DNA from: Rhodopirellula baltica SH 1
GTDB lineage: Bacteria > Planctomycetota > Planctomycetia > Pirellulales > Pirellulaceae
DNA length: 64,000 nt
Assembly: GCF_000196115.1 (NCBI RefSeq)
Contig: NC_005027.1
Coordinates: 1,426,001 to 1,490,000 of the forward strand
Reading direction: 5' to 3'
In this document: positions 13,630 to 55,812 of the stretch, in pieces
How positions within the stretch are numbered: position 1 is the first letter of the stretch
Layout: each line of letters begins with the position of its first letter
Notes under the pieces: model-generated
Database searches by the model: none
Seen by the model: only the letters and a program-made list of their open reading frames with translations
Told to the model about the DNA's origin: nothing
Made by a program: the position numbers and the translations under genes

Positions 13630-16149
13630 TTAGCCTCGGTTTAAAAATGGAGTGCTTTGAATGATGGCATGAATCAACTCGCGAGTTTGCAAGTCGTTTT
13701 GCAACATCTGATTTCGGATCGAGTCGATCGTGCACGCGTCGGCTTCTTCCAAACTTCTCGCTAGGGCGAAGCCAAGCATGCGTCGGATGTATTCGTCGAG
13801 GAAAGCGTCTTGGCGAGCCATCAGGACAGCTCTTAGTTCATCAACGCCCTCGAATGTTTCTCCGCTGGGCAACCGCCCCGAGCTGTCGATTTTCGGAAGC
13901 TTCGCGATCGTCTCAGGTGCCTTCTCGATCTTCTTCTGCCAATCCTCTTCGCTTGCTGAGCCACGTTCGTGGTCACGCCATCGACCGATCACGTCGAAGT
14001 TTTCCAATGCGAAACCGATTGGATCGATCAGGTCATGGCAGGCGGCGCAGGTCGGGTTCTCTCGGTGTTGTTCGAGTCGTTGGCGGACAGTCTTTTTGCC
14101 GTTCTCTTTTTCACCGCCTGGCAGCGATGGGACATCCGGCGGCGGTGCAGGCACTCGCGTTCCAAAGATTGTTTCCAATACCCATGCACCTCGAAGCACG
14201 GGACTGGTTCGCCGCGAATAACTGGTCAGCATGTGAACGGCACCCAGTCCTAGGGCACCCGTGCGACGCGACGCTTCGGGATCGTCCGCGATGCGAACGG
14301 CAACGAATCTTTGTTGGTCGTCTTTTAGTTTCTCCGCAGCGGTTTCCATTCCGTAGTGCTTGGCTAGCCGGTGATTGATGACGACTGTGTCGGAATCGAT
14401 CCAATCCGTCACCGGCCGATTTTCGCGAATCATCCAGGCCATCGTTTGGCCGACTTGTTCGCGCAGGTCGATCACAAGTTTGTCGGAGTATGCCGGTTTG
14501 AAAAAGTTGGTGTCGGGGATGACCGTGTTTCCAACCGCAGTGGTTCCGAGCCACTGGCTAGCAAACGCATCCGCAAAACGTTTCGATCGCGGGTCGGCGA
14601 GCATCCTGTCAACTTGTTTGCGAAGATTCTCAGGTTGGCTGAGCTCACTACGCTCGGCCAGGTCCAGCAATTGATCGTCGGGGATCGAATACCAAAGAAA
14701 AAACGAAAGCCGAGTCGCGAGTTCCAAATCCGTGATGCGATGAAGGTGCGATTCATCGGAATCGGATTCACTGATGTACAGAAAATTGGGAGATGTCAAA
14801 ATTGCCTGCAGGGCCAGTTGAAGTGCTGCTCGAGAAGTTTCGCCTCGAGCAACCACATGATCGAACAAAACCATCCAACGTTCGGTCGTGGTTTGGTCGA
14901 TCGGACGCCGCCAGGCTCGACGGGCGAAGCGAGTCAAAACCAGCTCCGCATCTTCGCGAGACACCGGATGAGTCAGCGGGTCCGCTTCTGGTGAGAGCCC
15001 CAAGATCGTTGCGGTTGCGGTCAGTCGTTTCTTCAGCGAGTCGCGACCGTATTCTTGGAACCCGCGATAGAACTTGGGCCCGAGTTGATCGATTGAGACT
15101 TCAGAGTTCTTCAGAGCGAAATCGCGGACGACGTCGGACATTTTTTGCCGATCGCGTTCGATCTGTTGGCCTTTGCGGTATTCAATTCGAGGCAATTGAA
15201 ACAAACGAACATGTGCGATGGTTAATGAGGCTTGGTCGTTTACATCGCTCGCGGCGGAATCGATTTGGACAGCAATGTGGTGCTGGCCTTTGGGGAGTGA
15301 CAGTGTCATCCAGTGGTGATCGTTCTCTCGGCGGCTCTGATCCAACACGGCCGCGACGATGCCATCCACACGCACTTGAACGCGAGTGTCGTCCGGAACA
15401 TCTCGTGGTAAGCGAATGGATAGTCCGTATGTTTCGTCGGTGCTGCAAAGCATCGTGTGCGTTGCGATGGAGGCTTCGCCGTCCGGTTGAAACTCAACCA
15501 GCCGCGGCGTGAGCACGATCGCTTCATCGATGACTTGGGATGCCACCTCTAAATAGCGTTCCATCAACAGAGGTGGCATAAACAATGTTTCGCCGTTGTT
15601 GTTGAAGCCTTCGCCGCCGCCTCCATCGGCGGGAAACGTTTCAACGAAATCAAAGTTCAGACTGGTCAGGTCGTTGATCGCATGTGTGTATTGGTCGCGA
15701 TTCAATCGTCGTGGCACAGGACGCCCCGCGAATTCACCACCATCGCAGGCGGTGGCCTTCAAGTGATCTTCAATCCATCGGTTGAGTCGCAGTCGTTCCG
15801 CTTCGGTGGGCTGGTCCGCATCCGCGGGAGGCATTGTGCGATTGTGCAATTGCTCCGCCGCACTGGACCAAACTTCGCGGCGACGTTGGATCTCATCGAC
15901 CGTGATTGACTTTAGAAAGCCGACGGGAGCCTCGTCGTCATCTGGCGAATGGCAATCGCCGCAGTAGTCGACCAGCATTGGACGGATGTCGTCTTCAAAC
16001 GCCGTTGTCGATTCAGGATTCGGAATTTCGGCCGCACCGATTTTGTTTGGTTCCTCGCCAAGGCAGGACGATTGCTGCGCGAGCAGGGCAAGCAAAACGA
16101 TCGACGCGAGAAAAGCCGCGTGCGATAAGAGGGAGAGCCTGGTTGGCAT
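13630..16149 (-). CDS. exported cytochrome-domain protein (DUF1587/1592/1595/1588/1585)
   Basis: The 839-residue protein has a signal peptide, then a PSCyt1-type heme site CGDCH (Cys63, Cys66, His67) after FEDDIRPMLVDY, then the large planctomycete module conventionally split into DUF1587, DUF1595, DUF1592, DUF1588 and DUF1585. A second CxxCH, CAACHDLIDPIGFALENFD, lies near residue 715. c-type heme would be attached outside the cytoplasm. Function is unknown; a redox or substrate-handling role at the cell surface is inference. I chose the ATG at 16149; a GTG lies two codons upstream. Confidence 0.92.
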   Translation of the reverse strand: MPTRLSLLSHAAFLASIVLLALLAQQSSCLGEEPNKIGAAEIPNPESTTAFEDDIRPMLVDYCGDCHSPDDDEAPVGFLKSITVDEIQRRREVWSSAAEQLHNRTMPPADADQPTEAERLRLNRWIEDHLKATACDGGEFAGRPVPRRLNRDQYTHAINDLTSLNFDFVETFPADGGGGEGFNNNGETLFMPPLLMERYLEVASQVIDEAIVLTPRLVEFQPDGEASIATHTMLCSTDETYGLSIRLPRDVPDDTRVQVRVDGIVAAVLDQSRRENDHHWMTLSLPKGQHHIAVQIDSAASDVNDQASLTIAHVRLFQLPRIEYRKGQQIERDRQKMSDVVRDFALKNSEVSIDQLGPKFYRGFQEYGRDSLKKRLTATATILGLSPEADPLTHPVSREDAELVLTRFARRAWRRPIDQTTTERWMVLFDHVVARGETSRAALQLALQAILTSPNFLYISESDSDESHLHRITDLELATRLSFFLWYSIPDDQLLDLAERSELSQPENLRKQVDRMLADPRSKRFADAFASQWLGTTAVGNTVIPDTNFFKPAYSDKLVIDLREQVGQTMAWMIRENRPVTDWIDSDTVVINHRLAKHYGMETAAEKLKDDQQRFVAVRIADDPEASRRTGALGLGAVHMLTSYSRRTSPVLRGAWVLETIFGTRVPAPPPDVPSLPGGEKENGKKTVRQRLEQHRENPTCAACHDLIDPIGFALENFDVIGRWRDHERGSASEEDWQKKIEKAPETIAKLPKIDSSGRLPSGETFEGVDELRAVLMARQDAFLDEYIRRMLGFALARSLEEADACTIDSIRNQMLQNDLQTRELIHAIIQSTPFLNRG

Positions 16150-16288
16150 GATCACTCGGTGGGAAAAGCAAGCGCGAGCAATTCACGAGTGCTTTCGAAG
16201 GTGGGGCGAGGTGGCGGGGAAGCCTGTGGTGGGGAACTCATTGTCGCCGCTGGCGGAGGGCGATGCAAGTTTTGCAAGCTCCAGTTTT

Positions 16289-47710: not shown

Positions 47711-47890
47711 ACGCGAGACATAGATCACATCGCGTCGAGCGATCCAAGCGTTTAGCGATGTTCGCCGCTCCAGCCGATTGTTTGCAAATCGACCTTTGAT
47801 CGAATTTCGAGTCGTTTCAAAGATTTTTCGTTCATTCCGAGTCACACTTTTGTTTGTGGCGACATGGTAGGAGCGAAAGGAACATGATCG

Positions 47891-48409
47891 ATGCAACGAA
47901 AAGAATTCGCCAAACTTGTGCTGGAACATCAGGCTCAACTGCGGATGTTTGTCCGCATGCTCGGCGCGATGCCCGACGCGGTGGATGATCTGGCCCAAGA
48001 TGCGTTTGTGGTTGCATACGAGCGAATTGATACGCTGGATGACATGGAAAACGCGGGGCCATGGCTGCGATCGATCGCTCGAAATTTGGTCCGCAACGAG
48101 CTGCGGAAAAGCTCTCGTCGACGCCGGGTCGTCAATGCATCGCTCAGCGAAGCGATGTTGGCAATGTCGAACGAACCAGTCACCGGTCCGTGGTCCGAAG
48201 ATTGGTTCACCGCGCTTCGGGCATGCGTCGATCGACTGCCGGGTCACGGTCGAGCCTTGGTCAATGGCCGGTACACGCGTGGACAGAACGCGACTCAGTT
48301 GGCGAATGAGACCGAGATGACACCGGTCGCCGTTCGCCAGGCTTTGTCGCGTCTGCGTGGTTTGCTTCGGACTTGTGTTGAATCACGTTTGGCGGAGGCG
48401 TCAACATGA
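47891..48409 (+). CDS. ECF-family RNA polymerase sigma factor
   Basis: The 172-residue protein has region 2 (residues ~8-78: LRMFVRMLGAMPDAVDDLAQDAFVVAYERIDTLDD...WLRSIARNLVRNELRKSSRRRR) and region 4 (LPGHGRALVNGRYTRGQNATQLANETEMTPVAVRQALSRLRGLLRTCV). It resembles the planctomycete group of ECF factors that lie next to FecR/LamG genes. It would direct transcription of a small regulon, probably this operon. AGGA lies about 11 bases before the ATG. Its stop overlaps the next start in ATGA, so the two are translationally coupled. Confidence 0.95.
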   Translation: MQRKEFAKLVLEHQAQLRMFVRMLGAMPDAVDDLAQDAFVVAYERIDTLDDMENAGPWLRSIARNLVRNELRKSSRRRRVVNASLSEAMLAMSNEPVTGPWSEDWFTALRACVDRLPGHGRALVNGRYTRGQNATQLANETEMTPVAVRQALSRLRGLLRTCVESRLAEAST

Positions 48410-50130
48410 GCGAACAAAAACGCGAACAAGATTTCGATCAGCAATTGAGCCATTTGCTCGATGGCGAACTCACCGAGGCGGAAGTGGATCGGTTGGCAAA
48501 GTCGCTGGCGACCGACGAAACGTTGCGACGGCGTTTCTGCGACCAAGTTGAAATGGATGAGGGACTTGCGATCGTGGTTCGCGAAGACCGGGCAGGCGAA
48601 AGATTTTCTCAATTGTTGGAGCAGCGTTTGGATGCAGAGTCGCAGAAGTTTGACTTTCTCCACGGCGTCCTGGATCGGTCGAGTTTGAACACGGCACGAA
48701 ACCAGCTTCAACGCTGGGCTCCGCTGGCGGCGGTCGCGATTGCCGCCTGCTTGATGGTCGCGTTCTTGATTGGCATGTGGGCGGGGCAAAAATCCGGATC
48801 TCGCAACGCCGAATCAGTGGCGAAGCGTATTTCGGTGCCAGCGCCAGCGACTGATTCTGAACCGGTTGACGCTTCTGTGGCATTGTTGAAGCGAACGGTC
48901 AATGTCGAGTGGCAAGACGATTCTGCTCTTCGGATGGGCGACTCCGTTTCAGCGAACGAAACACTGGATTTGAAATCCGGATGGGTGCAGTTGCAGTTTT
49001 TCCGAGGGGCGACGTTGACTCTGGAAGGTCCCGCGAAGCTGGAAATTCGCGATCCAAATTTGGTCGTGCTGCATGAGGGAAACGCTTGGGCGAGCGTTCC
49101 AGTTCCGGCGCGAGGGTTCACCGTGCTAACATCGGAAACCAAGATTGTTGATCTTGGGACCGAGTTTGGTGTGTCCGCTTCGATTGACGGGCGGACCGAA
49201 GTTCACGTCTTTGATGGATTGGTGGAGTTGCATGATCCGTCAGTGAGAGACGATACCGCATCGCTGCGTGAGTTGGTCACCGGACAATCAATCAGCGTGG
49301 ATGGGAATGGCAATGCGGTTTCGAATGAGCAGCAGGTTGCCAAGATGCCGTCTGAGTCTTTTCTTCAGCCAGATAGAGAAGAGGCTTGGCAACAAAGGAT
49401 CGAGCGTTGGGAAAGTTGGAGTACCAAGATTCGTAACGACCCTCGTGTGCTGATGTACTACGACTTTGCGTCGCCGGCAGAAACTAGTTCGAACGCATCG
49501 CCAACCATTTTGCCAAACCTTGCGTCGGGCAAAAAGAACGCGGATGGTTCGATCATTGGATGTGCTTGGTCGGAGGGCCGTTGGCCGGGGAAGTCGGCCT
49601 TGGATTTCAAACGGCCGAGTGACCGGGTACGTTTCCATTTGGATGGCGAATACAAATCGATCACCTTGGCGGCTTGGGTCCGAGTCGATGGACTCGACCG
49701 CCTGCTCAGTTCGTTGTTGTTGACGGATGGATGGGACGAGGGTGAGGTTCATTGGCAATTCGATCGAAGCGGACAACTTGGTTTATCCGTAGGCCAGGTT
49801 CCCGGGGTGGCGTGGCGCTACACGCCACCGCTGGTCGATCTCACGACGCTTGGGCAATGGATCCACGTTGCCTCGGTATTCGATGGTTCCACCCAAACGG
49901 TGCGTCATTACTTCAACGGCCGTCGCGTACCCTGCGAAGGCGACCTTCGTTATGACGGGCCGATCCGAATCGGTGACGCAGAGTTGTGCAATTGGGGACG
50001 ACCTGTTGACCAGAACTCTCATGCGATCAGAAACTTCAACGGTCGAATGGACGAGTTTTTGATGCTCAGTGATGCGTTGGACGAAGCGGAAATCATGGAA
50101 ATCTATCATGCCGGAAATCCCACGTTCTAG
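48406..50130 (+). CDS. FecR-domain and LamG-domain membrane protein (putative anti-sigma factor)
   Basis: The 574-residue protein has an N-terminal anti-sigma-like helical part (FDQQLSHLLDGELTEAEVDRLAKSLATDETLRRRFCDQVEMDE), one membrane helix (LAAVAIAACLMVAFLIGMWAG, ~residues 106-126), a FecR domain (VQLQFFRGATLTLEGPAKLEIR...KIVDLGTEFGVSASIDGRTEVHVFDGLVEL, ~190-290) and a C-terminal LamG/concanavalin-like domain (~345-574; ALDFKRPSDRVRF, MDEFLMLSDALDEAEIMEIY). It likely senses a carbohydrate outside and holds the sigma factor inside. Confidence 0.9.
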   Translation: MSEQKREQDFDQQLSHLLDGELTEAEVDRLAKSLATDETLRRRFCDQVEMDEGLAIVVREDRAGERFSQLLEQRLDAESQKFDFLHGVLDRSSLNTARNQLQRWAPLAAVAIAACLMVAFLIGMWAGQKSGSRNAESVAKRISVPAPATDSEPVDASVALLKRTVNVEWQDDSALRMGDSVSANETLDLKSGWVQLQFFRGATLTLEGPAKLEIRDPNLVVLHEGNAWASVPVPARGFTVLTSETKIVDLGTEFGVSASIDGRTEVHVFDGLVELHDPSVRDDTASLRELVTGQSISVDGNGNAVSNEQQVAKMPSESFLQPDREEAWQQRIERWESWSTKIRNDPRVLMYYDFASPAETSSNASPTILPNLASGKKNADGSIIGCAWSEGRWPGKSALDFKRPSDRVRFHLDGEYKSITLAAWVRVDGLDRLLSSLLLTDGWDEGEVHWQFDRSGQLGLSVGQVPGVAWRYTPPLVDLTTLGQWIHVASVFDGSTQTVRHYFNGRRVPCEGDLRYDGPIRIGDAELCNWGRPVDQNSHAIRNFNGRMDEFLMLSDALDEAEIMEIYHAGNPTF

Positions 50131-50335
50131 GAGACGGTTGATGCGTCCGATTGACTCGCGAACTCCGGCTTATGTCCCTGGTTTGGGTGCCCGATCGCAT
50201 CGAAACAGATCGTGCGGTGTTGCTTCATTCTCCCCTTGGTTTGCTTCGCCCTGGCATCGCGAGGGTGATGATAAACGCGTGGAAGTATGGCAGCTAGGAA
50301 ATCCACAATCTCGAAGCGTTGGGGGCGTAGGCCTG

Positions 50336-52816
50336 ATGCAACGCATCGCAATTTGCGGTGTGGTGTTGATGATGCTGTTGGGGCCTGTCACGGCTCGGTC
50401 TGAGGATGAGGTCGATCACAGGGACACGGCCCAGCCCACGCAGGATTCCCTGAATTTCTTTGAATCGAAGATTCGTCCGTTGCTGATCGATCACTGTTAT
50501 GAGTGTCATGGCGAAGACTCTCAGGAATCCGAACTTCGCGTGGACACGTTGGCGGGAATGTTGACCGGTGGATTGGCGGGGGCTTCTTTGGTTCCGGGAA
50601 AACCAGCGAGCAGTTTGTTGGTGACTGCTGTTCGCTATCAGGACAATGACCTGAAGATGCCGCCGGACGAGAAATTGTCGGATGTTCAGGTTGCGGACAT
50701 CATTCGTTGGGTTGAGATGGGAGCACCCCATCCCGACACGAATACTGTCGGACCAATCGTGCAGCGTGGCGAGGTGGACCTGGATCAAGGACGCAAGCAC
50801 TGGGCGTTTCAACCTCCCATCAAAGCCACTCCGCCGATCGGCGATGCATTGACGGATGCACCGAATCCGATCGATGCGTTTGTGCTGGCGCGACTGCGTG
50901 CGGAGGGCCTGCGTCCAAACGCTCCCGCTGATAAACGGACGCTACTTCGGCGCGTCACGTTCGACTTGATCGGTTTGCCGCCGACACCAGAAGAGATCGA
51001 CTCGTTTCTATCTGATAGCTCGAGCGATGCATTCGCGAAGGTGGTCGATCGATTGCTCGCCTCGCCTCAGTACGGTGAGCGTTGGGCACGACACTGGTTG
51101 GATGTTGCTCGCTATGCCGATTCCAACGGGCTCGATGAAAACGTGGTCCATGGAAATGCGTGGCGTTATCGTGATTACGTTGTGCGTTCGCTTAACGGTG
51201 ACAAACCATACAATCAATTTGTTGTCGAACAGTTGGCGGGTGATTTGCTGGATTCAGGCAATGATGTCGATCTTCGTCACGATCGTCTGGTTGCAACTGG
51301 CTTCCTTGTTTTGGGGCCAAAAGTTTTGGCCGAGCAGGATGAAGCCAAGATGGAAATGGACATCATCGATGAACAGATCGATACCGTCGGTCGCAGCCTG
51401 ATGGGGCTGACACTAGGATGTGCTCGTTGTCACACGCACAAGTTTGATCCGATCAGCCATCACGACTACTACGGGCTGGCCGGAATCTTTCAAAGCACAC
51501 AGACGATGGACAGCTACAAGACTGTCGCGGAGTGGCATGAGAACTCAATCGAAACACCCGAGCAGGCGGCCGAACTGAAGCAGCATCAACAAAAGATTGC
51601 CGATCAAGAAAAGTTGATTGCGGAGAAATTCACGCACGCCAAGTCAGAGCTGGAACCTCCGTCCGATGCTGCGGCTAAGCCGGACGAGCTCGAAAAACGA
51701 TTCTCGGAAGAAACTCGGGCGGAACTCAAGACGCTCCGTGATGAACTCGAACGTTTGAAAGAGGAAACACCGGAATTGCCATCTGCAATGGGTGTCGTCG
51801 ATGGTGACATCGCAGATACGGCCGTGCATCTTCGGGGCAGTCACCTGACACTTGGCGATGTCGTCCCGCGACGTTTTCCCGAAGTGTTGATGTCGGACGA
51901 CGATCCCTCGATCCCTGCTGATCAAAGTGGGCGTCTGGAGTTTGCTCGTTGGCTGACCAATGGGCGTCATCCGCTCACCGCTCGCGTGATGGTCAATCGC
52001 TTATGGCGTGGTCACTTTGGCAAAGGCTTGGTTCCAACGGTCGACAATTTTGGTCTGAAAGGCAGTTCACCGACGCACCCTGAATTGCTGGACTGGTTGG
52101 CGGTCCGATTTGTCGAGGAAGGTTGGTCGATCAAGGCGATGCACCGAATGATGGTGTTGTCGCAAACCTATCAACAAAGCAGTGACTTCGACGCGTCCAA
52201 TGCTGAACTAGATCCAAGCAACCAATTCTATTGGCGATTCAGTGTGCGGCGATTGGAAGCCGAAGCCATTCGTGACGGGTTGTTGGCCGTCAGTGGGCAA
52301 CTCGATTGGACGACCGGTGGCAACATCATGCCGTACAAAAACCGTGAGTATGTGTTCAACCACACCTCGCAGGACAAATCCAGATACGATTCAAAGCGTC
52401 GTTCGATCTACGTGCCCGTGATCCGCAATCACCTGTACGACATGTTCCAGTTGTTTGACTACACCGACGCGAGCGTTCTAGACGGCGATCGAAACACCAG
52501 CACAATCGCGCCGCAAGCGTTGTATCTGATGAATTCCGAGATGGTGTCTGACCTGACGTTTGCGATGGCGGATCGTTTGCTGAATGAAGACACCGATTCT
52601 GTGCAACGAATTCAACGTTTGTACTTGGAAGCTTACGGACGACCACCGCGCGATCCCGAGATTTCCGATGGCGTTCGGTTTCTCTCACGATTCGAGACGC
52701 TTCAGCGGCGCGGCGATGTTGAATCGGATGGTAACGCGTCCGATCCGGAACGTTCCGCCTGGCAAGCGTTTTGCCAAGCCGTGGTTTCCTCCAGCGAGTT
52801 TGTCTACCTCCGTTGA
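50336..52816 (+). CDS. PSCyt1-DUF1549-DUF1553 exported cytochrome-domain protein
   Basis: The 826-residue protein has a signal peptide (IAICGVVLMMLLGPVTA), a PSCyt1 heme site CYECH (Cys54, Cys57, His58), a DUF1549 region (NPIDAFVLARLRAEGLRPN...RWARHWLDVARYADSNG...CARCHTHKFDPI with a second CxxCH), a charged helical insert (~420-495) and DUF1553 (FARWLTNGRHPLTARVMVNRLWRGHFGKGLV...). The family is widespread in planctomycetes; function is unknown. The longer start at 50141 has good GGAG spacing but would put 65 odd residues before the signal peptide; I prefer 50336. Confidence 0.92.
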   Translation: MQRIAICGVVLMMLLGPVTARSEDEVDHRDTAQPTQDSLNFFESKIRPLLIDHCYECHGEDSQESELRVDTLAGMLTGGLAGASLVPGKPASSLLVTAVRYQDNDLKMPPDEKLSDVQVADIIRWVEMGAPHPDTNTVGPIVQRGEVDLDQGRKHWAFQPPIKATPPIGDALTDAPNPIDAFVLARLRAEGLRPNAPADKRTLLRRVTFDLIGLPPTPEEIDSFLSDSSSDAFAKVVDRLLASPQYGERWARHWLDVARYADSNGLDENVVHGNAWRYRDYVVRSLNGDKPYNQFVVEQLAGDLLDSGNDVDLRHDRLVATGFLVLGPKVLAEQDEAKMEMDIIDEQIDTVGRSLMGLTLGCARCHTHKFDPISHHDYYGLAGIFQSTQTMDSYKTVAEWHENSIETPEQAAELKQHQQKIADQEKLIAEKFTHAKSELEPPSDAAAKPDELEKRFSEETRAELKTLRDELERLKEETPELPSAMGVVDGDIADTAVHLRGSHLTLGDVVPRRFPEVLMSDDDPSIPADQSGRLEFARWLTNGRHPLTARVMVNRLWRGHFGKGLVPTVDNFGLKGSSPTHPELLDWLAVRFVEEGWSIKAMHRMMVLSQTYQQSSDFDASNAELDPSNQFYWRFSVRRLEAEAIRDGLLAVSGQLDWTTGGNIMPYKNREYVFNHTSQDKSRYDSKRRSIYVPVIRNHLYDMFQLFDYTDASVLDGDRNTSTIAPQALYLMNSEMVSDLTFAMADRLLNEDTDSVQRIQRLYLEAYGRPPRDPEISDGVRFLSRFETLQRRGDVESDGNASDPERSAWQAFCQAVVSSSEFVYLR

Positions 52817-52878
52817 GAAAGCGTTAGCCACGTGCGTCATTTTGCAATTTCTCGCCTTCTTCCATCCCAGCTGATCTG

Positions 52879-54288
52879 ATGCATTTTTCACGACGACAGC
52901 TCTTGCAGAATACCGCCGCGGGATTCGGATCGCTGGCGCTGGCGTCGTTGCTCGCGGACGATGCTCGTGCCTCTAGCGGCAGTGCTGTTTCATCGCTTTT
53001 GGGAACTCCACATTTTCCACCAAAAGCGAAACGAGTGATCTTTCTGTTTATGAAAGGTGGCCCGTCGCACATGGACACGTTTGACTACAAGCCGCAATTG
53101 CAGAAGGACGATGGCAAGCCATTGCCATTCGAAAAACCTCGCGTGCAGTTTGCTCCGACCAGTAACCTGTTGGCTTCGCCTTGGAAGTTCAAACAATACG
53201 GAGAGAGCGGGATCTCGGTCAGTGAATTGTTCCCTCACGTCGCGGAATGCGTGGATGATTTATGCATCATCAATTCGTTGCACGGTACCAACCCAGCCCA
53301 TGGCGGCGCGAGTATGAAGCTGCACACGGGCAGTGATGTGTTTGTCCGTCCCAGCATGGGGGCTTGGGTGACATATGGCCTCGGTACAGAGAATCAAAAT
53401 CTGCCGGGGTTCATCACCATTTGTCCAACGTTGGCCCATGGCGGAACGAAGAATTGGGGTTCGGCGTTCCTGCCCGCCAGCGTTTCCGGGACTCCGATAG
53501 GCAACGCCAGCCAACCATCCGATCAAGCCCGTGTGAAGTACGTTCAAAACGCTCGTTTGTCGCTGGACGCACAACGCATGCAGTTGGATTTGACGCAATC
53601 GATGAACCGAGAATTCTTGGAAACGACCGGTCCGGATTCCGAACTCGAAGCTCGCATTCAGTCTTTTGAGTTGGCATTTCGAATGCAAACGGAGATGCCC
53701 GAAGCGTTGGACTTAGAATCCGAAACGGAGGCGACGCACAAGCTTTATGGGATCGACAACGAGACCACGGCGGACTTTGGACGCCAGTGTTTGATGGCAC
53801 GTCGATTTGCTGAGCGTGGTGTGCGATTCGTCCAAATCACACACAGCAACACGGAAGTGCAATGGGACCAACATGGCAACCTTCGCAAAGGTCACACGCA
53901 GAATGCCGCCGAAGTCGACCTGCCGATCGCAGGTTTGCTGACAGACTTGAAGACACGAGGTTTGTTGGACGACACGCTTGTATTGTGGGGAGGCGAATTT
54001 GGTCGCACGCCGACGTGCCAGGGGTCTGGACAAGACGGCCGAGACCACAACCCGGAAGGTTTCACGATGTGGATGGCGGGCGCCGGTTTGAAAACTGGCA
54101 TCCAGTACGGCGCGACGGACGAGTACGGATACTACGCGGTCGAGAACAAAGTCCATCTGCATGATTTACATGCCACGATCTTGCACCTGTTGGGCCTTGA
54201 TCATGAGCAACTGGCTTATCGCCATGCTGGACGCGATTTTCGCTTGACGGATGTTGCGGGCAACGTCGTCCATGACTTGTTCGCGTAG
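52879..54288 (+). CDS. DUF1501 protein, Tat-exported
   Basis: The 469-residue protein has a twin-arginine signal ([28 protein letters not shown]) and the DUF1501 pattern: [85 protein letters not shown] and [18 protein letters not shown]. The fold resembles alkaline phosphatase/sulfatase, with metal-ligand-like D and H residues. Substrate unknown. It starts 62 bp after the cytochrome gene and ends the operon. Confidence 0.94.
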
Positions 54289-54306: not shown

Positions 54307-54783
54307 TTAGGATTTTTGCGGCGTCACTTCGTTGCCGTTTGGGGCTTTGGTCGCAAATGGATTCGAATGCACGTCGCCGACGATGTTGTTCTGTGAGCTG
54401 ATCCAACTGCGAATTTGCTCTTCCGATTGATAACCGACGTGATCGCCGAGCTTTTGCCCTTCGCGAAACAGCATCATTCGCGGGATGCCGGTGACCTTGA
54501 ATTTTCGCGCGAGGTCTTGGTTGCCACAGAGACTGAGGGAATGAATCTCCACACCCGCCGGAGGATCGGCCTTGATCGAATCCAGTTCCTCATCCAAGCG
54601 ATTGCATGGGCCGCAAGATTTCGAACCAAACTTGACCAAGACCAACTTGTCCTGACCAATCAATCGGTCAAACGATTCTTCGCTGTATGAGCCTGTGATC
54701 TCAGACATGCTGCAACCGCCGCCCAAACAAATGATCGCAATTGTGAGGAGCAATCCAATGCGCAATGGTGACAGGTGGTTCAT
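54307..54783 (-). CDS. thioredoxin-like lipoprotein
   Basis: The 158-residue protein starts at 54783 with a lipoprotein signal (IGLLLTIAIICLGGGC, Cys at about 24), then a thioredoxin fold with KFGSKSCGPCNRLDEEL (CGPC active site) and VTGIPRMMLFREGQKLGDHVGY (cis-Pro loop). It should be a membrane-tethered thiol-disulfide exchange or reductase protein outside the cytoplasm, plausibly serving cytochrome or other exported proteins. The longer frame to 54933 places 50 residues before the lipobox and is rejected. Confidence 0.9.
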   Translation of the reverse strand: MNHLSPLRIGLLLTIAIICLGGGCSMSEITGSYSEESFDRLIGQDKLVLVKFGSKSCGPCNRLDEELDSIKADPPAGVEIHSLSLCGNQDLARKFKVTGIPRMMLFREGQKLGDHVGYQSEEQIRSWISSQNNIVGDVHSNPFATKAPNGNEVTPQKS

Positions 54784-55068
54784 GGGAGACTTCGAGCAAG
54801 CTGAGGGAAACGCGATCCCCGCACGGTTGCGGGAAGAAGGATCACGGTCCTTTCGCAAACACTTGGTCGCAAAACGCATCGTGTCAAACGTTTTGCCACA
54901 GAAGTAGGTCGCGCCCACGACAGCAGATGTCATTTGCTGGAGTCAGCTTGAGTAGAAGCGTTGTCCCCAACTGTTCCGTTAGGCAGCCTTCAATCGCCAA
55001 GCCAAATGGCAACCCAGTCAACTTCAAACATTCACGTCACGCCTCGCGATCGTGAGTATGCCTTGGGG

Positions 55069-55812
55069 TTAGCTCGATTGATCCAAAATGTTACCGGCAT
55101 TCTGTTGCGGAGCATTCGTTTTCGATTTGCGACGGCGTAAAGCAAGTCCAGCACCGCCAATCGCGAGGAAGGCCACCGACGATGGCTCTGGAACGGCACT
55201 CGCATTTGCGGAAACGGTGAAGTTGTCAATGAAGATTGTCGCGTTGTCGATAAGATCGCTTTGGTCTTTCAATCCTAACGCAAAGAAGCGATCCGGCGAG
55301 TTATCGAATTGGATAGTGCCGTTCGTTCCGTCGAATTGGTTTCCCGAGCCCTGCACAATATCAACGCTAAAGGTTCGGCTCGTCGTTGCCCCAATGGTAG
55401 GAAAGGCAAAAAGATCAACTTCTGTGTCGGAGCTTAAGCCTGAGCCCACTGCAAGCTGCATCTCTAAAAGGGTTCCTGCTGCAGGAACGCCTGCTAGCCC
55501 CCATGTGATGTCGTCTCCGGAAATTGAATAGTCGAAGGAGATCGTTCCGCCATTCGAGTACGCCAATGCCATCTCGTCTCCCAAGGCGGTTCCTGGCATG
55601 AAGCTGAGAGTGGCTGCTCTAGATCCATTCTCAAAAAAGTTACTTCCGCCAAGAGCGAGAATTTGCAGCCTGCCTGAATTGTTCGTCACAGTACCTCCGT
55701 TTGTACTCGCGAAGCCATCTGTTCCCGTATTAAAGGTGAGCGCCACTGCGCCCGATGAAGAAGGCACACCGATCGCCACAAATATCAGGGTCGCAAATAG
55801 AACTCGTATCAT
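55069..55812 (-). CDS. PEP-CTERM sorting-domain protein
   Basis: The 247-residue protein has an N-terminal signal peptide (IRVLFATLIFVAIGVPSSSGA), a beta-rich middle part of unknown function, and a C-terminal sorting signal VPEPSSVAFLAIGGAGLALRRRK (residues ~210-230), the motif recognised by exosortase, followed by ~20 residues. No exosortase is in the window. The last residues after the arginine cluster (SKTNAPQQNAGNILDQSS) are unusually long for the class. A surface or matrix protein is likely. Confidence 0.88.
   Translation of the reverse strand: MIRVLFATLIFVAIGVPSSSGAVALTFNTGTDGFASTNGGTVTNNSGRLQILALGGSNFFENGSRAATLSFMPGTALGDEMALAYSNGGTISFDYSISGDDITWGLAGVPAAGTLLEMQLAVGSGLSSDTEVDLFAFPTIGATTSRTFSVDIVQGSGNQFDGTNGTIQFDNSPDRFFALGLKDQSDLIDNATIFIDNFTVSANASAVPEPSSVAFLAIGGAGLALRRRKSKTNAPQQNAGNILDQSS

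Follow-up and report, generated by a model that had tools for sequence, protein, structure and literature searches.

A candidate autoregulated ECF sigma factor cassette with exchangeable cargo in Rhodopirellula baltica SH 1

Background

How might one pair of exported proteins be given a switch of its own in a genome that holds dozens of similar pairs? This question is raised by four adjacent genes in a 64,000-nucleotide stretch of Rhodopirellula baltica SH 1 (hereafter the window; bases 1426001-1490000 of one 7,145,576-base contig), which encode, in order, an extracytoplasmic function (ECF) sigma factor, a membrane protein that joins FecR and LamG domains, a PSCyt1-PSCyt2-PSD1 protein and a DUF1501 protein. 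An earlier reading of the sequence, referred to here as the original prediction, had described them as a self-contained operon and a carbohydrate-sensing signal unit. Our preferred reading, to which we give a probability of roughly 0.65, is that the locus is an autoregulated cassette of ECF sigma factor and membrane anti-sigma factor whose sole recognisable promoter is its own, and which would answer a fucan-type signal with a heme-motif protein and a DUF1501 protein as output.

Results

Layout of the locus

The features on which the argument draws are listed below, one per line.

47841-47869, + strand: predicted self-promoter, with a -35-like box GTCACACT (47841-47848), 11 spacer bases and a -10-like box CGACATGGTA (47860-47869); boxes fixed and spacer variable across 19 sigma factors
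47891-48409, + strand: ECF sigma factor of 172 amino acids (aa), by its match to TIGR02989 (Rhodopirellula/Verrucomicrobium family) and its clade placement
48406-50130, + strand: anti-sigma-like FecR-LamG sensor, by Pfam domains and a hydrophobic span
50141-52816, + strand: PSCyt1-PSCyt2-PSD1 protein, probably exported; the alternative start at 50336 has a hydrophobic, signal-like N-terminus
50495-50509, + strand: CxxCH heme motif 1 (PSCyt1); C54, C57 and H58 conserved at 90% or above in alignment A3
51419-51433, + strand: CxxCH heme motif 2 (PSCyt2); C362, C365 and H366, then invariant H368 (all four in 61/61)
52879-54288, + strand: DUF1501 protein with the twin-arginine translocation (Tat) signal SRRQLLQ, modelled with a fold of the alkaline-phosphatase superfamily

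The head-to-tail run at 47891-54288 is as originally described, with all four genes present in one direction and their identities borne out by profile matches and motifs. The sigma factor scores 177.3 bits against TIGR02989 (curated cut-off 124.55) and so belongs to that family; the sensor matches FecR (PF04773) at 28.1 bits (cut-off 24) and Laminin_G_3 at 53.3 bits; the third gene product matches PSCyt1, PSCyt2 and PSD1 at 69.8, 290.8 and 300.8 bits; and the fourth matches DUF1501 at 531.9 bits. The ATGA overlap between the first two genes (sigma end 48409, sensor start 48406) and the 62 base pairs (bp) ahead of the last (gene 3 end 52816, DUF1501 start 52879) were likewise found as claimed. 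At the junction between genes 2 and 3, a start at 50336 would leave a gap of 205 bp, but an in-frame ATG with a Shine-Dalgarno-like stretch ahead of it (GGAGAC) lies at 50141, 10 bp past gene 2, and an ATG after a GGAG-like stretch occurs at the same place in four relatives (G002, G009, G006 and G004; genomes and loci are given by our G and L numbers). Because these signals recur in relatives, gene 3 probably begins at 50141 rather than at 50336, which would make this junction tight as well.

A conserved promoter ahead of the sigma gene

Upstream of the window sigma gene, at 47841-47869, lies the two-box pattern GTCACACT-N11-CGACAWGGTA, which was first noticed, with some deviations, there and in G002, G009, G018, G029, G012 and G001, these seven sites having been picked out by eye. 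The boxes lie near the start codon, and the 11-base spacer varies in sequence. The 7.1 Mb genome of R. baltica holds one exact site, none at one or two mismatches and six at three mismatches; the control, which was the same pattern read backwards, gave 7 in this genome. Across 149 genomes of the family, the scan returned 53 sites with at most two mismatches, in 43 genomes, against a control of 42 (summed by hand from a table). All 53 sites were inspected: 15 precede a sigma gene of the window type (6 of 6 exact sites, 6 of 8 with one mismatch and 3 of 39 with two), and the other 38 are about as many as the control yields. Since these leftover sites equal background, the 149-genome scan gives no sign of a wider regulon at its sensitivity, at which weaker targets would escape.

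With the sigma protein alone as query, 12 out of 196 genomes from the order gave a match (E <= 1e-25). The motif lies ahead of the sigma gene in nine of these, six of which had not been used in defining it, and one of the nine (G180) has a 12-base spacer; the three genomes in which it was not found form a distant trio within one family. None of the ten other R. baltica sigma factors above the TIGR02989 cut-off carries the motif, the closest approach having four mismatches. At the level of sequence, then, the gene has what marks an autoregulated ECF unit—a conserved, subgroup-specific promoter ahead of the sigma gene—and we strongly predict that this promoter is recognised by the sigma factor encoded directly behind it.

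In two genomes, G288 (L137/L273) and G116 (L135/L274), we also observed a second, mirror-image copy of the promoter upstream of the first and pointing away from the sigma gene, 57 nt from the first copy in both, with two and three mismatches and with the boxes kept while the spacer is not. No convincing frame begins right after either mirror-image copy, which may possibly serve a divergent gene or a small RNA. Separately, four loci from another TIGR02989 subgroup (L039, L040, L053 and L054) share, by eye, a conserved upstream block around GCAAATGC and GGCGGAG, and subgroup-specific self-promoters may be general among TIGR02989 sigma factors.

One sigma clade with exchangeable cargo

In a tree of 74 sigma factors, the 19 that bear the motif form one clade (Shimodaira-Hasegawa-like approximate likelihood ratio support 88), and the motif label needs a single change on the tree, compared with a mean of 17.2 in label shuffles (0 of 500 as low). 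This test is not fully independent, because part of the 19 were found through the motif: 12 were added once it was known, some via the motif itself. The clade splits into two halves, with supports of 100 and 98.

The first half, subclade A, has eight members in the tree (the window, G002, G009, G018, G098, G128, G103 and G131). All eight, together with G040, which was found later and stands outside the tree, encode the sigma factor, the FecR-LamG protein, the PSD1 protein and the DUF1501 protein in this order; the comparison of gene order in relatives that the original prediction had proposed as a check thus found the full order kept in nine species. With the predicted self-promoter added, the sequence evidence bears out neither of the outcomes named as fatal to the original prediction, a gene order that varies among relatives or a sigma factor without effect on the operon.

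Subclade B has 11 members, with cargo readable in 10 (the G180 contig is cut), and here what follows the sensor varies, as grouped by eye. A GH29 fucosidase comes right after the sensor in G012 (where the contig ends within the gene), G113 and G064, and in the latter two sulfatases come next, along with a beta-helix protein whose GH141 match is sub-threshold. The same position is taken by a DUF1559 protein in G106, G116, G288 and G001, and, in both G029 and G136, by a GDSL-DUF7133-cytochrome c protein; in G132 the first cargo protein is untyped. Further downstream, G001 has a gap of about 700 bases before genes for a GH29 fucosidase, for DUF1552 and for PSCyt3/PSD, and G288 encodes PSD1, with a short frame of the DUF1501 type. 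In G116, on the side of the sigma gene away from the cargo, lie genes for a class II aldolase, for an aldehyde dehydrogenase and for a sulfatase. Judged by these genome comparisons, the system is a one-sigma, one-promoter cassette with an exchangeable output.

The cargo also bears on the signal. Because members of the sister subclade pair the same promoter and sigma factor and a similar sensor with GH29, sulfatase and GH141-like genes, a fucose-rich sulfated glycan is in our view the likeliest signal. Fucan-type carbohydrate sensing, as a reasonable inference, gains indirect support from the fucosidase and sulfatase cargo in part of subclade B, and our guess, with that much behind it, is that signal and substrate would be a sulfated glycan that contains fucose, or something released when it is broken down. 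Two other TIGR02989 units of R. baltica (L061 and L062) also hold sulfatases.

Alternatively, the sensor might read heat, cold, salt or envelope damage, with effectors that repair or protect the envelope and a LamG domain directed at a surface glycan of the cell itself. We consider this unlikely. It draws on the report that the R. baltica ECF gene RB10049, with RB10051 (PSD1/PSC2) as its proposed target, is induced by heat, cold and salinity (Wecker et al. 2009, PMC2754498; papers cited by PMC number are represented here by excerpts), and on a paralogous R. baltica unit (L063) in which a 217-aa sigma factor precedes a PSD1 gene and which we take to be RB10049/RB10051. That unit, however, belongs to another sigma lineage (L004) without this promoter, and the catabolic fucosidases and sulfatases carried in part of the sister subclade fit a stress role poorly. 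RB10049/RB10051 resembles the window unit in that an ECF sigma gene stands beside a PSCyt2/PSD1 gene and was proposed as its regulator, whereas the window unit has a sigma lineage and a promoter of its own and encodes its FecR-LamG sensor as a separate gene, a component that we did not recognise in L063. As a side observation, the PSD1 protein of L063 (4658-8290) has an N-terminal extension that includes a hydrophobic stretch (alignment A1, by eye), possibly an anti-sigma part in fusion with the effector.

The FecR-LamG sensor

The sensor consists of an N-terminal part (residues 1-100) with an LLDG motif, a hydrophobic span at about 105-125, a FecR domain at 192-274 and a LamG domain at 417-563. 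The Asp in the LLD(G/D)-like stretch of the N-terminal part is conserved in 18 of 19 sequences, counted by eye; for class I (RseA-like) anti-sigma domains, a conserved Asp has been described in helix 1 of RseA (PMC7406223), a comparison made here by description rather than by alignment. Between subclades A and B, mean identity is 41% in the LamG domain, 40% in the FecR region and 26% in the N-terminal part; the extracytoplasmic part thus persisted as the cargo changed, in keeping with a shared or similar ligand. A solved-structure search by sequence gave no match for the sensor. A recurrent in-frame TGA in FecR-LamG matches was set aside: in the R. baltica case (L069) the terminal stop had been taken as the last alignment column, and the other cases, which were not inspected, look the same.

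FecI-FecR-FecA cell-surface signalling combines an ECF sigma factor, a membrane FecR-domain regulator and a TonB-dependent receptor with a signalling domain. The window unit likewise has a FecR domain in a membrane regulator encoded beside an ECF sigma factor, but it has no TonB-dependent receptor among its four genes and five scanned neighbours, the LamG domain is fused to the regulator, and the only predicted target of the sigma factor is its own operon. A unit that answers iron or heme supply by making a heme protein would account for the FecR domain and the two heme motifs; with no receptor in the genes scanned, a LamG domain standing where FecA would act and a sister subclade whose cargo is partly carbohydrate-active, we regard this explanation as highly improbable. 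Another parallel is offered by direct-ligand anti-sigma factors such as RsiV with lysozyme (PMC4183432), in that the window sensor would also bind an external ligand directly, with the difference that it has a lectin-like domain.

The PSD1 protein and DUF1501 as an output pair

R. baltica has 41 PSD1 genes (two pieces of one frame merged), which is the number printed for this species (PMC2754498), and 41 DUF1501 genes; 38 of the 41 PSD1 genes, including that of the window, have a same-strand DUF1501 gene no more than 2.5 kb away. Among 80 loci from other genomes, DUF1501 comes after PSD1 in 63, and in 57 when the count is limited to the 65 that have more than 2 kb of downstream sequence. The window protein has all three Pfam domains of a PSCyt1-PSCyt2-PSD1 protein and two CxxCH motifs, as do most of 61 PSD1 homologues by motif count (two in 54, one in 6, three in 1). 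Its model is mostly helical (mean predicted local distance difference test score, pLDDT, 91.2) and had no Foldseek match in the PDB at E <= 0.001 (best 1.8), and PSCyt1 has weak cytochrome c matches in a solved-structure search by sequence.

Of 58 homologues of the partner protein, 56 carry the Tat motif RRxx[LFIVM] close to the N-terminus. A solved-structure search by sequence returned nothing useful for DUF1501, and its model (pLDDT 90.2) has 160 PDB matches at E <= 0.001 with sulfatases on top, the best E value being 5e-7 against sulfatases and other alkaline-phosphatase-superfamily structures, with template modelling scores of 0.31-0.42 among the matches listed. DUF1501 thus models as an alkaline-phosphatase/sulfatase-type fold. 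We considered and rejected a sulfatase assignment, with which the fold agrees: [CS]x[PA]xR, which we take to be the formylglycine signature of S1 sulfatases, is absent from the window protein, and within residues 41-200 it is present in 3 of 58 sequences.

A second pairing offers a comparison. In a profile comparison, the C-terminal domain of the PSD1 protein (window 50336-52816) matches the C-terminus of DUF1800 at 89.5% (E 2e-6; five controls 0.3-8.1%), with weaker values over the whole length (57.1% and 62.9%; 2.3% in a forced global alignment) and no significant match between PSCyt2 and the DUF1800 N-terminus (E 0.061). The DUF1800 Pfam profile (PF08811) has no match in the window protein or in the R. 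baltica genome. A DUF1501 frame lies within about 1.5 kb in 22 of 30 DUF1800 loci, and the DUF1800 frames read contain no CxxCH. The DUF1800 alignment (A5) covers 21 of the 30 loci (from the L229-L257 set), seven having been dropped because their frame lay on the strand opposite the match, and it also lacks L238 and L255, for which no such strand reason applies. The PSD1 C-terminal domain is likely a remote relative of DUF1800. Because of this C-terminal match and the presence of DUF1501 near most DUF1800 loci, the planctomycete PSD1-DUF1501 pair appears to be related to that of DUF1800 and DUF1501, although the N-terminal halves do not match significantly.

In the literature, the DUF1800-DUF1501 pair is a Tat-exported DUF1501 protein with a partner gene, associated with chitin synthase (PMC5122149); another paper has DUF1800 alone, in a table (PMC7563939). 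The window pair shares with it the Tat-type DUF1501 protein with a partner and the resemblance of the C-terminal domains, and differs in its CxxCH motifs and in its association with a sigma factor rather than with chitin synthase.

That this pair processes fucose-type sulfated material by a heme-dependent step is a tentative suggestion, one on which we would not yet bet. Bolder, and in our estimation unlikely, is the idea of a portable glycan-sensing module for which the PSD1/DUF1501 pair would be the heme-dependent, non-hydrolytic equivalent of the fucosidase/sulfatase/GH141-like set; if true, it would amount to a new enzymatic route for sulfated fucans and would explain the dozens of PSD1/DUF1501 pairs in this planctomycete.

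Loss of the switch in two congeners

In G006 and G004, two genomes of the same genus, the CvfB-like gene found upstream of the unit (94% and 87% identical) directly precedes the PSD1 and DUF1501 genes. G006 retains apparent relics, namely 55 bases that resemble the sigma gene (78%, E 1e-6) and 67 bases that run from the end of the sensor gene into the beginning of gene 3; in G004 nothing of the sigma gene was found, and neither genome yielded a window-type sigma factor. The only promoter-like sites, one in G006 (one mismatch) and one in G004 (two), lie inside a 264-aa frame in both and were put down to chance. The PSD1 and DUF1501 frames are open in both genomes, with ratios of nonsynonymous to synonymous divergence (dN/dS) of 0.09-0.12 and 0.03-0.06, respectively, in comparisons involving these two; where present, the sigma factor (0.05-0.07) and the sensor (0.09-0.17) are also under purifying selection. 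These are pairwise Nei-Gojobori estimates, several with dS above 1, and they show constraint while the ratios themselves are inexact.

Within the genus, G002 and G009 retain the unit at the same place; G001, G007 and G003 have the upstream gene without this unit after it in the stretch read (the G003 contig ends early), and in five other genus members the upstream gene had no match. By dS, G006 is placed adjacent to the window species, with G004 more distant. Because of this placement and the presence of the full unit in other genera, the sigma factor and sensor were likely lost twice, independently.

The same genomes lend something to an explanation that we otherwise find quite improbable, in which the effectors would be made constitutively for housekeeping, with the sigma-sensor pair as an add-on that the cell can do without and that is gained and lost. 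PSD1 and DUF1501 remain in place under constraint in G006 and G004, and the majority of PSD1 loci lack an upstream sigma gene; the purifying selection on sigma factor and sensor where they are present, and the conservation of the promoter boxes across genera, speak against a mere add-on. As for the self-contained operon of the original prediction, its regulation does look self-contained, but its effectors are not tied to the regulator, being kept in these two genomes without it.

Discussion

Returning to the autoregulated, fucan-responsive cassette, several findings weigh against it. In G006 and G004, effectors persist without sigma factor and sensor, and therefore coupling of regulator and effectors is not essential; among the 80 PSD1 loci from other genomes, 59 have room upstream, and of these a sigma gene was present in 4 and a FecR-LamG type in 2. 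Three sigma factors on the clade's sister branch lack the motif. The anti-sigma match of the sensor is weak (NF052375, 20.5 bits against a cut-off of 100). On the side of the signal, fucosidase cargo is confined to 4 of the 10 subclade B loci whose cargo could be read, the GH141 domain matches fall below the Pfam cut-off, and no sugar hydrolase was recognised in the subclade A units, in which the four genes were typed and genes further downstream were not.

The mechanism that we propose would run as follows. The N-terminal domain of the sensor would hold the sigma factor at the inner membrane until ligand contact by the extracytoplasmic LamG/FecR part frees it. The freed sigma factor would then transcribe from the promoter just upstream of its own gene, a site located by genome comparison, so that sigma factor, sensor and both exported effectors would rise together. 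The two effectors, one of them helical with its two heme motifs and the other a DUF1501 protein bearing a Tat signal, would presumably act outside the cytoplasm.

ECF control of PSCyt/PSD genes had been proposed earlier by Studholme et al., as cited in PMC2754498. In freshwater Verrucomicrobia, PSCyt/PSD genes have been described with carbohydrate-binding module (LamG) domains and sulfatase neighbours, and a carbohydrate role was suggested (PMC5615132); these are the same protein families as the window effectors, with LamG in the effector there and in the regulator here, and the excerpted text of that paper mentions neither 'sigma factor' nor 'FecR'. In the open-licence literature we found no description of this promoter, of a FecR-LamG sensor in such units or of cargo exchange, and no tested function for DUF1501 or PSD1.

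The PSCyt/PSD and DUF1501 families are heavily expanded in this genome, and a dedicated sigma factor with one predicted promoter would offer a clean switch for one PSD1/DUF1501 pair. The fucosidases and sulfatases of the sister cassettes hint at a concrete class of substrate, and G006 and G004, with effectors and no regulator, amount to a natural experiment that bears on the purpose of the regulation.

Additional observations

Large proteins with YHYH and PBP domains are encoded near other TIGR02989 sigma factors of R. baltica (L064, 7322-9187; L068, 7749-9752). Elsewhere in the window, at 13630-16155 on the - strand, an 841-aa frame has a weak PSD-protein match (E 1.6e-5) and no Pfam type. 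Just downstream of the operon lie genes for a thioredoxin-like protein (54307-54933, - strand) and a PEP-CTERM protein (55069-55812, - strand).

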